The notes beneath the pieces were generated by a model. That model saw nothing but the letters and a program-made list of their open reading frames with translations. It did no database searches and was not told the origin of the DNA. DNA of 33,022 bases. It comes from Deltaproteobacteria bacterium (lineage in GTDB: Bacteria > Desulfobacterota > Desulfobacteria > Desulfobacterales > Desulfosarcinaceae). The stretch spans positions 1 to 33,022 of the forward strand of contig JAKAFO010000015.1 of the NCBI GenBank assembly GCA_021819735.1, read 5' to 3'. The position numbers and the translations under genes are program-made. Shown here in pieces: positions 1,793 through 30,902 of the stretch (within the stretch, counting starts at the first letter, position 1; the number at the start of each line of letters is the position of its first letter).

Positions 1793-1981
1793 ATGCGTTA
1801 CGATACCCCCATATTCCACTGCCCCCACTGCCGGTCGCCGCTGGCCCAACAGCGCACCTGACGCAAGGTGCAATGGCGCTGCAAGGCTTGCGGCCAAGCG
1901 TACGATCTGGCCGACCTGCTCGATCAATTGGATGAGCGCACCGAGGCGGCCCTGGGTAACCTGATCTGCAATCGGTTTTAA
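1793..1981 (+). CDS. Dual-CXXC small selenoprotein candidate (in-frame TGA at 1859-1861 read as selenocysteine)
   Basis: The reading frame from ATG 1793 to TAA 1979 has 62 codons, one of them TGA (codon 23). Around it lie a CPHC motif (10-13), the potential Sec at 23 and a CKAC motif (30-33), followed by an acidic helical tail ending LICNRF. The frame stays protein-like on both sides of the TGA, and the downstream AEC gene begins one base after the TAA, so the ribosome is expected to reach that point. From memory, a deltaproteobacterial family of small dual-CXXC proteins has Cys or Sec at this position, in a context like RTC-RR; I could not verify this. selA lies 27 kb away in the same window. 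A hairpin starts directly after the TGA. The alternatives are a nonsense-mutated gene or a 22-aa truncated product. The function is unknown; a zinc ribbon or thiol/selenol redox protein is the natural guess. Confidence 0.62.
1862..1892 (+). promoter_or_regulatory. SECIS-like hairpin immediately downstream of the in-frame TGA
   Basis: CGCAAG at 1862-1867 pairs perfectly with CTTGCG at 1887-1892. Inside it TGCA at 1869-1872 can pair with TGCA at 1880-1883, leaving a 7-base apical loop ATGGCGC (1873-1879). An alternative inner stem is GTGC/GCGC with loop AATG. Bacterial SECIS elements are stem-loops in the coding region directly 3' of the UGA, with the apical loop roughly 15-35 bases away. Here the loop is 12-18 bases away, at the short end. 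The loop has GG but no obvious GGU, so the match is structural only. Confidence 0.45.
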
Positions 1982-1982
1982 T

Positions 1983-2906
1983 ATGGTCATCCAACACCTC
2001 TTCCCCGTCTTTGCCTTGATCCTGCTGGGCGTGATCCTCAAGCAGCGCGGGCTGACCGATGCGCGTTTCCTGGCCGCCACCGATCGGTTGATCTACTACA
2101 TCTTCTTTCCGGCCATGCTCTTCTGGAAGATCGGCACGGCCGATCAGCGTTTCGCCGCCCAGGCCGTACCGCTGTTTCTGGCCGCGGCCTGTGCGGTGGG
2201 CGTCATTTATCTGCTCAGCGCCCTTTACATATGGGTCATGAAGGTGCCGGCCTTTCAGGCCGGCGGGTTTTCCCAGAGTTGCTACCGCTTCAACACCTAT
2301 GTGGGCATGCCGGTGATCCTCAGCCGCCTGGGCGACAGCGGCGTGGCCCAATTCGGCATTCTGATCGGTGGGGTGATCCCCTTGATCAACCTGCTGGCGA
2401 TCGCCACCCTGATCTGGTTTTCCGGCCAGCCCAGCCACTGGCGCGCCCGGCTGCGCCTGACGGTGCGCGCCATGCTGACCAACCCCCTGGTGATCGGATG
2501 CGCGGCCGGGCTGCTTTATGCGCGCTGGGTCAACACCTTGCCCGCCTTTCTGGAAAACACCCTGCGCCTGGGGGTCTCGGTCACCCTGCCGCTGGCGCTG
2601 ATCTCGGTGGGCGGCAGCCTGACCCTGGGGAGCCTCAAGAGTCACCTGACGCTGGCCACCGTGGGCGCCGTGTTCAAACTGCTGCTGCTGCCGCTGGTCG
2701 GGTACGGCTTTCTGCGGCTCTTCGGTGTCACCGGCACCGACTGGGGTGTAGGCCTGATTTTCTTTGCCCTGCCCACCTCCACGGCCATCTATGTGCTTTC
2801 GTCCCAGTTGGGCAGCGACACCGACTTTGCCGCCGCGGCCGTGATGGTCTCCACCGCCCTTTCCTTCCTTTCGCTCTCGGCGGCCCTGTGGTGGCTGCAT
2901 GCTTAG
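1983..2906 (+). CDS. AEC (auxin efflux carrier) family transporter
   Basis: This is a 307-aa integral membrane protein of the AEC/BASS-like fold, which moves organic anions across the inner membrane. Hydrophobic segments run through the whole length, with about ten predicted. The family motif around SCYRFNTYVGMPVI (about 98-111) is present, and the C-terminal half has the characteristic glycine-rich SVGGSLTLG stretch. The substrate cannot be read from sequence; relatives are annotated as malate, malonate or auxin-type carriers. The ATG lies one base after the stop of the dual-CXXC gene, with no separate ribosome-binding site standing out, so translation is probably coupled. It overlaps truA by eight bases at its 3' end. 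Confidence 0.9.
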   Translation: MVIQHLFPVFALILLGVILKQRGLTDARFLAATDRLIYYIFFPAMLFWKIGTADQRFAAQAVPLFLAAACAVGVIYLLSALYIWVMKVPAFQAGGFSQSCYRFNTYVGMPVILSRLGDSGVAQFGILIGGVIPLINLLAIATLIWFSGQPSHWRARLRLTVRAMLTNPLVIGCAAGLLYARWVNTLPAFLENTLRLGVSVTLPLALISVGGSLTLGSLKSHLTLATVGAVFKLLLLPLVGYGFLRLFGVTGTDWGVGLIFFALPTSTAIYVLSSQLGSDTDFAAAAVMVSTALSFLSLSAALWWLHA

Positions 2907-3642
2907 AAATTTTAAATTGGTGATCGAGTACGACGGCACTGCCTGGCACGGCTGGCAACGCCAGCCCAACGGCCGCACCATTCAGGAGGCCATCGAAACC
3001 GCCCTGGCCACCATGACCCGCCAGGCGGTCGCGATCATCGGCTCGGGACGCACCGACGCCGGCGTACATGCCCTGGGGCAGACGGCCAACTTCACCTGCG
3101 ACACCGCCATCACGCCCCAGGCGTTCCACAAGGGCCTCAACAGCCTGCTGCCGCCCGACATCGTCATCCGCGAGTGCAGCGAAGTTCCCCTGGCATTTCA
3201 TGCCCGCTATGATGTCCGCGCCAAAATCTACCGTTATACGATTCGCAACCACCCCTTGCCGGCCGCCATCGGCCGGCACTATGCGTGGTGGCTTCGGGCG
3301 CCCCTGGACGTTACGGCCATGGCCGTGGCCGCTGCCCATCTGGTGGGGGAAAAGGATTTCAAGGCCTTCGAAGGCACGGGCAGCCCGCGGGCGCACACCG
3401 TGCGCCATGTGACCCGGGCCGAGGTGCGCCGCGTGGACGGCGACCACCTCCACTTCGAGATCGAGGCCAATGGCTTCCTGCGCTATATGGTCCGCAACCT
3501 TACCGGCACCCTGGTGGCCATCGGCATGGGGCAGATGCCTCCCGACGATATCCTATCGATATTGCATTCCCATGATCGGCGAAAGGCGGCTCCCACCGCT
3601 CCGCCCCAGGGCCTCTGCCTGGTCCGGGTTATCTATTATTGA
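2899..3642 (+). CDS. truA: tRNA pseudouridine(38-40) synthase TruA
   Basis: TruA converts uridines 38, 39 and 40 of the tRNA anticodon arm to pseudouridine. The 247-aa length matches the family. The chain opens FKLVIEYDGTAWHGWQRQ and carries the catalytic block GSGRTDAGVHALGQ, with Asp53 as nucleophile. The conserved RYMVRNLTGTLVAIG segment sits near residue 200. The ATG lies inside the end of the transporter gene (eight-base overlap), which implies translational coupling. The preceding dual-CXXC and transporter genes form one compact run with it. Confidence 0.97.
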   Translation: MLRNFKLVIEYDGTAWHGWQRQPNGRTIQEAIETALATMTRQAVAIIGSGRTDAGVHALGQTANFTCDTAITPQAFHKGLNSLLPPDIVIRECSEVPLAFHARYDVRAKIYRYTIRNHPLPAAIGRHYAWWLRAPLDVTAMAVAAAHLVGEKDFKAFEGTGSPRAHTVRHVTRAEVRRVDGDHLHFEIEANGFLRYMVRNLTGTLVAIGMGQMPPDDILSILHSHDRRKAAPTAPPQGLCLVRVIYY

Positions 3643-28091: not shown

Positions 28092-29450
28092 ATGAATGTG
28101 ACCCTACGACATCATGTGGCCGCCGGGACCCTGAGCATATCCGAGCGCAAGCCATTGTTTCTCCAAGCCTACCTGGGTACTTGTGTCGGCTTGGCCGTAT
28201 ATTGCCGGAAAAGCGGGATTGGCGGCATGATTCATCTGCTGCTGCCCGAACCGGTGTCGCTCAGCACCGTCAAGCAACCCGAAAAATACGCCTCCACCGG
28301 CGTTCCGCTGCTCATCGCGGCTCTTCTGGAAAAAGGCGCCCAGGCCGACGCCATGGTGGCCACCATGGCCGGCGGCGCCCTGGTGGGCCCGCTGAGCGAA
28401 CAGGATCTGGCGCTGGATATCGGCGGACGGACGGCCGACACGGTGCGCGAGTACCTGGCCGGGCGGAAGATCGAAGTCATCCGTTCCGAAACCGGCGGCT
28501 TTTTTACCTGCTGCCTCAGCTTGGATATGGCCACCGGCCAGTGCACCATCGAACCGGCCGGCATCGCCAAGCTGAACGCACCGGCGGATATCAAGGTCCC
28601 CACCCCGGCGGAAATCAAGGCATCCATGGATCACCTGCTGCCGATCCCCCAGGTGGCCTTGAAAGTGATGCGCATGATCGAGGACCAGGGGCATGCCATC
28701 CAGAAAATCGCCGACGAAATCCGCAAGGACCAGGTGATCAGCGCCCGGGCGATTCAATTGGCCAATTCGGCCATGTTTGCCAAAAGACAGGCCATAGAAT
28801 CCCTGGACCAAGCCTTGATCTATCTGGGCACCGATCAAGTGGTCAAACTGGTGATCTCGGCGGCCGTCCAGGGCTATTTTGATCAATCCTCATCGGGATA
28901 CTCCTTGTGCAAGGGCGGGTTGTACCACCATGCCCTGGGCTGCGCCCTGGTGGCCGAAGCCCTGGCCGTCAAAACCGGCAAGGTGGAACCGCGCAAAGCC
29001 TATACCGCCGGCCTGCTCCACGATATCGGCAAGGTGGTGCTGGACCAGTACGTGGCCCCGGCCTATCCGCTGTTTTACCGCCAGGCCATGGAGAAGAACG
29101 AAAATCTGCTGACCATCGAGCGGCGCCTGCTGGGCATCGACCACGCTGAGGCCGGCCGCATGCTGGCCCAACAATGGTCGTTCCCGGAATCCCTGGCCCA
29201 TGCCATCCGCTATCACCATCACCCGGATAAGGAGAGTCCATTCAAGCCGCTGGCGATCCTCGTTTACCTCGCCGATTTGCTGCTGTCCCGTTTTAATGTC
29301 GGATTCGAATTGGAACGCATCGATACCAGCGCCCTGGCGGCTTATCTGGAAAGCATCGACCTGAACCTGGACGACTTCGACCATCTGGTGGACCTGATTC
29401 CCGATGTGGTGCTCAAGTCCACGACCGAGTGCGCCGCGGCCAATCCCTGA
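28092..29450 (+). CDS. CheD-HDOD fusion protein
   Basis: The 452-aa protein fuses two signalling domains. The N-terminal part (about 15-165) is CheD-like, with the deamidase residues in LGTCVGLAVY (Cys31) and GGMIHLLLP (His48), spaced as in Thermotoga CheD (17 apart). CheD deamidates glutamines of chemoreceptors. The C-terminal part (about 178-385) is an HDOD domain opening IPQVALKVMRMIEDQG. It retains HD-type residues: YHHA, LLHDIGKVVLDQY and RYHHHP. AGGAAG precedes the ATG. The gene lies 24 bases before selA, in the same direction. The fused architecture suggests the two activities are coupled; the target is unknown. Confidence 0.9.
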   Translation: MNVTLRHHVAAGTLSISERKPLFLQAYLGTCVGLAVYCRKSGIGGMIHLLLPEPVSLSTVKQPEKYASTGVPLLIAALLEKGAQADAMVATMAGGALVGPLSEQDLALDIGGRTADTVREYLAGRKIEVIRSETGGFFTCCLSLDMATGQCTIEPAGIAKLNAPADIKVPTPAEIKASMDHLLPIPQVALKVMRMIEDQGHAIQKIADEIRKDQVISARAIQLANSAMFAKRQAIESLDQALIYLGTDQVVKLVISAAVQGYFDQSSSGYSLCKGGLYHHALGCALVAEALAVKTGKVEPRKAYTAGLLHDIGKVVLDQYVAPAYPLFYRQAMEKNENLLTIERRLLGIDHAEAGRMLAQQWSFPESLAHAIRYHHHPDKESPFKPLAILVYLADLLLSRFNVGFELERIDTSALAAYLESIDLNLDDFDHLVDLIPDVVLKSTTECAAANP

Positions 29451-29474: not shown

Positions 29475-30902
29475 ATGCCCATCGACCCTCGACAGCAACA
29501 CCTGCTCCGCAGCCTCCCGGGCGTGGATCTTCTTCTGTTGGCGGCGGACGATGAACCGGCCTTGCAATCGACGCCCAAAAGCGTCGTGACCCGTGCCATT
29601 CGCGAGTCACTGGAGGCGCTGCGCCAGCGGATCCTGGCCCAGGATGCGTCTCTTGCCGAGCCGGCCCTATCCCCCGGGGCGCTGATGGCGACGGTCATCC
29701 GGCGCGCAACCCAAATCCAAAGCTACAACTTAAAGCGCGTGATCAACGCCACCGGCGTGGTGGTGCATACCAACCTGGGGCGCTCCTGCCTGGCCCAGGA
29801 AGCCATCGACCACGTGTCGGCCATGGCCGCCCGTTACTCCAACCTGGAATTCAATCTCGAGACCGGCCGGCGCGGATCGCGTTACAGCGCCGTGGAAGAG
29901 CTGCTGTGCGAGCTCACCGGCGCCGAAGCGGCCATGGTCGTAAACAACAACGCCGGCGCCGTGCTGCTCTGTCTGGACACCCTGGCCAGGGGCAAAGAGG
30001 TGATCATTTCCCGGGGCGAGTTGGTGGAGATCGGCGGTTCGTTCCGCATTCCGGATGTGATGGCCCGCAGCGGGGCCCTGCTCAAGGAGGTCGGCGCCAC
30101 CAACCGCACCCACCTGCGCGACTACCAGCAGGCCGTCACCACGGCCACCGGACTGCTTCTCAAGGTGCATACCAGCAATTACGCCATCGTGGGCTTTACG
30201 ACGGCCGTCAGCCTGACCGACATGGTGGCCCTGGGCCGGCAATTGAACCTGCCGGTCATGGAAGACCTGGGCAGCGGCAACTTCATCGACCTGACCCAAT
30301 ACGGCCTGGCCGCCGAACCCACGGTGCAAGCCTCGGTGGCCGCCGGCGTGGATGTGGTCACCTTCAGCGGCGACAAACTCCTGGGCGGTCCCCAGTCGGG
30401 CCTGATCGTCGGACGCCGGGAGATCCTGGAGCGCATCAAGGCCAATCCCCTGACCCGCGCCCTGCGCATCGACAAGTTGACCCTGGCGGCCCTGGAGGCG
30501 ACCCTGCGCCTCTACCGGGATGAAGCCCAGGCCGTAAAGCGCATCCCCACCCTGCGCATGCTGCTCTGCCTTCGGCCTGAGATCGAAGGCCGGGCCCGGC
30601 AATTGGCCGAAGCGCTGCGCGGCTTGAACCACCCGCGGCTGAGCGTGACCCTGTGCGATCTCACCTCCCGGGCCGGCGGCGGGGCACTGCCCCTGTTGGA
30701 CCTTCCCAGTTGTTGCGTGGGCATCGCCCTGGACGGGCAATCGCCCAACCGCATCGAAGCGGCCCTGCGCAACGGCCGTCCCCCCATTATCGGACGCATC
30801 GAGAACGATCTCTATATTATAGATCCGCGCACCCTCCAGGACGATGAACTGGAAATCGTCGTCGCGGCTTTCGCGGACATGGTACAAAGGATTCCGGGTT
30901 GA
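29475..30902 (+). CDS. selA: L-seryl-tRNA(Sec) selenium transferase
   Basis: SelA converts seryl-tRNA(Sec) to selenocysteyl-tRNA(Sec) with selenophosphate; it is a PLP enzyme. The 475-aa product matches the family length (E. coli 463). It carries RVINATGVVVHTNLGRS near the start of the PLP fold, LKVHTSNYAIVGF, and SGDKLLGGPQSG with the PLP lysine Lys301. It follows the CheD-HDOD gene by 24 bases and is followed by the GGDEF-like TPR gene, not by selB, which is commonly its partner. Its presence implies this organism makes selenoproteins and supports Sec reading of the TGA at 1859. Confidence 0.97.
   Translation: MPIDPRQQHLLRSLPGVDLLLLAADDEPALQSTPKSVVTRAIRESLEALRQRILAQDASLAEPALSPGALMATVIRRATQIQSYNLKRVINATGVVVHTNLGRSCLAQEAIDHVSAMAARYSNLEFNLETGRRGSRYSAVEELLCELTGAEAAMVVNNNAGAVLLCLDTLARGKEVIISRGELVEIGGSFRIPDVMARSGALLKEVGATNRTHLRDYQQAVTTATGLLLKVHTSNYAIVGFTTAVSLTDMVALGRQLNLPVMEDLGSGNFIDLTQYGLAAEPTVQASVAAGVDVVTFSGDKLLGGPQSGLIVGRREILERIKANPLTRALRIDKLTLAALEATLRLYRDEAQAVKRIPTLRMLLCLRPEIEGRARQLAEALRGLNHPRLSVTLCDLTSRAGGGALPLLDLPSCCVGIALDGQSPNRIEAALRNGRPPIIGRIENDLYIIDPRTLQDDELEIVVAAFADMVQRIPG

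Follow-up and report, generated by a model that had tools for sequence, protein, structure and literature searches.

The closest described relatives of the gene analyzed here belong to the NCBIfam family NF041197, 'dual CXXC motif small (seleno)protein'. In a 2026 review (PMC13188914), this model is equated with the selenoprotein OS_HP3, which carries the motif RxU and for which Zhang and Gladyshev 2007 is cited as the source; another product, 'hypothetical protein DW' with the motif GxU, is also placed under NF041197. The printed naming is unsettled, as the protein SMF39960.1 appears as OS_HP3 in PMC9312934 but as DW in PMC13188914. In the deep-Sep paper (PMC12013277), OS_HP3 is a known selenoprotein of Desulfosarcina widdelii and the only known selenoprotein in the test genomes that was missed by the program described there.

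The window, that is, the whole stretch of DNA under analysis (33 022 nucleotides), is one complete contig (C108) of a 5.3-Mb genome that consists of 517 contigs. At positions 1793–1981 of the forward strand, translation yields a frame of 62 codons followed by TAA (1979–1981), the sole in-frame interruption of which is a TGA at codon 23 (1859–1861). The frame is preceded by a Shine-Dalgarno-like sequence, AGAGGTGA (1782–1789, same strand), and the TGA lies between two CXXC motifs, CPHC (residues 10–13; 1820–1831) and CKAC (residues 30–33; 1880–1891); the first is presumed to supply metal ligands. In all six frames of the whole window, a CXXC motif within 22 codons on both sides, with no stop between, is found for one of the 966 TGA triplets. 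With selenocysteine (Sec) read as Cys, the 62-amino-acid product matches NF041197 with 63.1 bits (cut-off 40), and in a six-frame search that reads past the stop, the locus scores 54.2 bits against the same model.

The gene combines a score above the cut-off, a pair of CXXC motifs that enclose the Sec/Cys position and the RxU motif (R21-T22-U23 in the translation), and it is an ordinary member of NF041197/OS_HP3, with no distinguishing feature found. From DW, the hypothetical protein of the deep-Sep paper (PMC12013277), which PMC13188914 places under the same model, it differs in having RxU instead of GxU. The 'ECs_2282 family putative zinc-binding protein' (NF047912) is matched below threshold (20.1 bits versus a cut-off of 37). 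The sequence-only reading had described the 62-codon frame with its TGA between CPHC and CKAC, had placed the next gene one base after the TAA, and had proposed an unannotated selenoprotein candidate. The frame holds on translation, the next gene is the ORF at 1983–2906, and the selenoprotein status of 1793–1981 appears almost certain. The candidate is not new: this is a true selenoprotein gene of a family that is already named, Sec included (NF041197), and already in print as OS_HP3, and not a new family. What is added here is modest, namely, a corrected position of the SECIS element and a testable, conserved gene group for a family for which no established function was seen. The case also illustrates that reading the raw sequence can spot a genuine selenoprotein whose gene a simple caller would truncate.

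Homologues of the window protein are widespread among its relatives. NF041197 is matched above the cut-off in 51 of the 60 related genomes searched (its own genome included), and all 54 over-cut-off matches in this set contain exactly one in-frame TGA. Within the genus, the 11 genomes searched all carry the family and keep the TGA; the nearest named relatives comprise six loci, five from Desulfatitalea records and one from a Desulfobacterales metagenome-assembled genome (MAG). Some relatives, such as G034, G041 and G044, lack a match despite 97–99% completeness, so that the family seems dispensable. Among 395 genomes drawn evenly from the phylum, a few of them shared with the 60 relatives, at least 88 exceed the NF041197 cut-off, with at least 89 matches, at least 62 of these with one TGA and at least 27 with none, these tallies being lower bounds because at most 16 candidates were scored per genome.

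The position of the Sec codon is occupied in a highly restricted manner. Over the 81 loci that were fetched and checked, this column holds TGA in 66, Cys in 15 and anything else in none. Of the 27 TGA-free matches from the phylum that were read, 25 have Cys at the Sec column, as does L164; L163 is truncated, and the column is absent from it. The search among homologues called for by the sequence-only reading has returned a family with either TGA or Cys at residue 23, and neither of the two patterns that were named there as signs of a nonsense mutation was seen: no over-cut-off homologue with a non-Cys sense codon at 23 was found among the loci read, and the frame is conserved past the TGA. Below the threshold, five matches among the relatives are stop-free; one of them, L173 (23.5 bits), was inspected, and it lacks Cys at the column and looks like an unrelated zinc ribbon. 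The genomes with the Cys form, 25 out of 25 (for example, G134, G175 and G412), retain selA, the gene for Sec synthase, which implies that Cys is used there without loss of Sec decoding.

The loci were sorted by hand into main-type, other Sec, paralogue and Cys classes, and two of the 81 (L127 and L157) are left out of the following residue counts because of a one-residue shift. The four Cys residues of the CXXC motifs are invariant in the alignment, which covers 58 Sec members, 14 Cys members and 7 paralogues. Arg is found at position −2 relative to the Sec/Cys column in 45 of 58 Sec sequences and in 14 of 14 Cys sequences, and 49 of 57 Sec members have a further Cys near the C-terminus, which the other 8 lack. 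The frame remains conserved past the TGA. Compared with the nearest full-length relatives, the codons after the TGA show 4 synonymous and 2 non-synonymous differences (L063) or 9 and 2 (L064), and compared with more distant ones, 10 and 12 (L065) or 9 and 14 (L067); for the 22 codons before the TGA, the respective values are 1 and 6, 3 and 6, 8 and 8, and 6 and 10. By these raw counts, which are not dN/dS ratios, the 39-codon part that follows the TGA is no less conserved than the 22 codons in front of it.

Seven genomes (L132, L134, L136, L137, L138, L139 and L161) also encode a divergent second copy, which has an in-frame TGA and a hairpin of its own. This paralogue is mostly of the CIFCGGRAELHGRU type, with a GxU motif, and the match lies about 5 kb into each locus except for L139, where it is near the start; in six of the loci (L132, L134 and L136–L139), the copy is possibly the published 'hypothetical protein DW'. 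In two genomes (L171 and L172), a sub-threshold copy has Cys at the Sec column. The truncated L163 (G425:C39) is a remnant in which only the second CXXC and the C-terminal region are left, an apparent loss in one genome. A weak second match in the genome of the window itself (L002) has an E-value of 0.043.

The structure of the product was approached by modeling, and the model is mediocre. An AlphaFold prediction from seven close sequences, with Sec modeled as Cys, has a mean pLDDT of 71.9 and a pTM of 0.50; in it, two strands (residues 16–21 and 26–30) flank residues 22–25, with residue 23 between them, and a short strand and two helices complete the chain. Foldseek gave weak matches, none below an E-value of 0.001; ZifS, a small zinc-finger protein, came first (E = 0.033), followed by RNA polymerase III chain I. 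The best VIA match, 6upy_I, had a Z-score of 3.7, with an rmsd of 3.0 over 38 residues and 16% identity. By sequence, no clear solved relative was detected, the best match (E = 0.0002) being a eukaryotic zinc-finger protein. The weak structural neighbours are mostly zinc-binding domains, and, judging from the model, a small C4 zinc-ribbon-like scaffold is probable. The four CXXC cysteines would then be the ligands of a metal, whereas Sec23, mostly with Arg at −2 and located in the turn between two strands, could hold a reactive selenol at the surface, in some cases with the C-terminal Cys as its partner. Such a product might act as a thiol/selenol redox protein or as one that reacts with electrophiles, a role that Cys could also serve in other lineages. 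A redox role of the selenol is thus predicted, with about equal chances of being right or wrong.

The same structural neighbours permit another interpretation, under which the protein would be a purely structural zinc-ribbon partner, similar to Rpb9 or Trm112, with Sec23 used for binding and not for redox chemistry. Apart from the RNA polymerase chain 6upy_I, Trm112 (6f5z_D) is a neighbour (Z 3.0, rmsd 4.0 over 44 residues), and one Cys member of the family has a sub-threshold match to Trm112 (20.3 versus 77 bits). All these fold matches are weak, however: the likeness to the Rpb9-type zinc ribbon of RNA polymerase subunit I comes with no demonstrated sequence relation, and at a Z-score of 3.7, it may reflect only a common arrangement. 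Furthermore, the replacement of Sec exclusively by Cys (66 and 15 of the 81 loci, respectively) argues for selenol/thiol chemistry. A purely structural role is accordingly possible but rather unlikely.

The genomic neighbourhood of the gene was surveyed with tblastn, using the genes of the window together with the S4-domain pseudouridine synthase (PF00849 and PF01479) of one relative, in a sample of 54 main-type loci, one per genome, the window included. In the window, the selenoprotein gene is followed on the same strand, one base past its stop codon, by a gene for an AEC-type membrane transporter (1983–2906; PF03547, 68.5 bits) and then by truA, which encodes a tRNA pseudouridine synthase (2899–3642, same strand; TIGR00071, 200 bits), whereas argJ (456–1649; PF01960, 457 bits) is the divergent neighbour on the reverse strand. 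Downstream and on the same strand, truA is present in 40 and the transporter in 27 (window included) of the 47 main-type loci with 2 kb of downstream sequence, and in 15 of these loci, truA occurs without any AEC match. Upstream, divergent argJ is found in 39 of the 49 main-type loci with 1.5 kb of upstream sequence and is missing from the other 10, and the divergent pseudouridine synthase is found in 39 of the 54. The five neighbour genes surveyed are absent from the available flanks of all 27 remaining loci (15 Cys, 8 paralogue and 4 other Sec). Of the 15 Cys loci, 5 directly follow a phosphoribosyltransferase gene (PF00156 in the one that was scanned), which we take to be pyrE-like; some are near a gene for a PilZ-domain protein (PF07238 in the one scanned) and a gene that is presumably glmS-like. 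The gene order is therefore conserved in much of the taxonomic order, but no partner explains the function of the selenoprotein. A search of the literature for the combination of a selenoprotein with truA, argJ and an auxin efflux carrier returned nothing, which is thin evidence of absence.

In 16 of the 27 loci with the transporter, its start lies 0–11 nt from the stop of the selenoprotein gene (on this scale, the one-base gap in the window counts as 2). A match of at least five bases to the Shine-Dalgarno core precedes 21 of 51 selenoprotein starts but only 3 of 30 transporter starts, compared with 328 of 5000 random 17-mers, the start positions in this comparison being approximate. The conserved order, the close transporter starts and the Shine-Dalgarno contrast suggest that the selenoprotein gene usually opens a small operon in its taxonomic order and that the transporter is possibly translated by coupling to it.

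Such an arrangement could also be read as a selenium-gated leader, in which the insertion of Sec in the first gene decides whether ribosomes gain access to the transporter and truA and the operon would thus follow the selenium supply, the peptide itself mattering less. The same-strand position of the two downstream genes, the short distances and the scarcity of Shine-Dalgarno matches before the transporter all fit this scheme. Against it, the protein itself is conserved, the Cys homologues, on which selenium can have no such effect, are maintained in different gene surroundings in genomes that all keep selA, and the Shine-Dalgarno comparison depends on approximate starts, so that a leader function in place of a protein function is improbable. 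A milder version, in which a genuine selenoprotein additionally serves as a selenium gauge for its operon, is equally doubtful; if true, it would mean that when selenium is scarce, the UGA goes unread and the translation of the transporter and truA is uncoupled.

A bacterial SECIS element had been placed by the sequence-only reading in the stem CGCAAG/CTTGCG. The two arms are indeed present (1862–1867 and 1887–1892) and complementary, enclosing 19 bases, but the stem is not conserved: all six pairs form in 1 of the 59 Sec members, the window itself, and this stem was accordingly rejected as the SECIS. The better candidate is a hairpin at 1878–1894 (forward strand), with the stem GCTGCA/TGCGGC and the loop AGGCT (1884–1888), which is shared among the Sec members, overlies the second CXXC and has its loop 22 nt after the TGA. 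This choice is based on pairing, on the loop base G at 1885 and on a recoding test, in which the fold energy of the natural sequence was compared with those of 300 synonymous recodings.

Of the six stretches examined in this test, 1874–1894 shows the sharpest contrast between Sec and Cys members. The natural sequence there folds more stably than its recodings do on average in 7 of 7 paralogues (mean z −2.14) and in all but one of the 59 Sec members (58; −2.04), in contrast to 8 of 25 Cys members (+0.22), a set that is less diverse than the Sec set (11 of the 25 come from one genus) and is a fair control in one respect, given that all 25 genomes have selA. In 41 of the 59 Sec members, the natural stretch beats nine tenths of the recodings, and in the window itself, 2% of the recodings fold as well. 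For the stretch from +15 to +39, which extends three bases further at its 3' end, stability exceeds the mean in 58 of 59 Sec (mean z −2.06) and 18 of 25 Cys members (−0.63), and from +3 to +48, in 54 of 59 (−1.05) and 18 of 25 (−0.44), with the window unremarkable over the latter (39% of recodings are as good). In the main Sec set, the stretches further downstream give no stability signal in this test (mean z +0.23 and +0.12); in the paralogues, the stretch from +39 to +63 is more stable in 7 of 7 (mean z −1.64).

Pairing and loop composition point in the same direction. The set of five core pairs is complete in 52 of 59 Sec members and 6 of 7 paralogues, versus 2 of 25 Cys members; part of this pairing comes from coding because the hairpin overlaps the conserved Cys codons. 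At 1885, a loop base that falls on the wobble (third) position of its codon, every one of the 59 Sec members has G (24.6 expected from local codon use), and so do 15 of 25 Cys members (7.1 expected). According to PMC13188914, bacterial SECIS elements have a loop of 3–9 nt, a stem of 4–16 bp, G in the first two loop positions, a distance of 16–37 nt from the UGA and a minimum free energy (MFE) of at most −7.5. The hairpin agrees with these rules as quoted, with its loop AGGCU, its 6-bp stem and its spacing of 22, the MFE of −7.7 kcal/mol for 1874–1894 being only narrowly below the limit. When 47 or 71 nt surrounding the TGA are folded as a whole, the MFE structures lack the hairpin and are no better than those of shuffled sequences (z 0.35 and 0.07); Rfam contributed nothing useful, its single hit (E = 3.1, opposite strand) being put down to chance.

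Comparison among homologues points to Sec at residue 23, to a SECIS at 1878–1894 and to a conserved gene group. The selenoprotein proposed by the earlier reading is borne out by the Sec/Cys pairs, by the frame conserved after the TGA, by a full Sec machinery and by a SECIS-like hairpin whose synonymous sites bear a mark of selection. The explanation that seems very likely on these sequence data is that of an intact NF041197 selenoprotein gene, in which SelB and tRNA-Sec would decode the UGA at codon 23 as selenocysteine, aided by a hairpin whose first base would be the 17th past the UGA and whose sequence would come mostly from the second CXXC codons. That the TGA is instead a nonsense mutation or a sequencing error in an ordinary gene, a possibility raised by the existence of a sense (Cys) form, because a TGC-to-TGA change in one isolated genome would look alike, is rejected as extremely improbable given the TGA shared by all the relatives' over-cut-off matches, the conservation of the frame downstream and the much stronger hairpin signal in Sec than in Cys members.

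The Sec machinery, for which the sequence-only reading had relied on selA within the window, is represented more fully in the genome. selA (29475–30902, forward strand) matches TIGR00474 with 617 bits, and this gene exceeds the cut-off in 57 of the 60 relatives, the genome of the window included. On another contig, selB was detected with 366 bits (cut-off 242), and elsewhere in the genome, tRNA-Sec with 72.3 bits (gathering threshold 47) and selD with 383 bits; with an estimated contamination of 7.9% in this MAG, a foreign origin of the selB, selD and tRNA-Sec genes, which lie outside the contig of the window, is conceivable in principle. The selD gene (L175, G000:C258:19259-20185) contains one in-frame TGA, so that SelD is itself probably a selenoprotein. 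Directly before selA in the window, the ORF at 28092–29450 encodes an HDIG domain preceded by a CheD-like N-terminal part.
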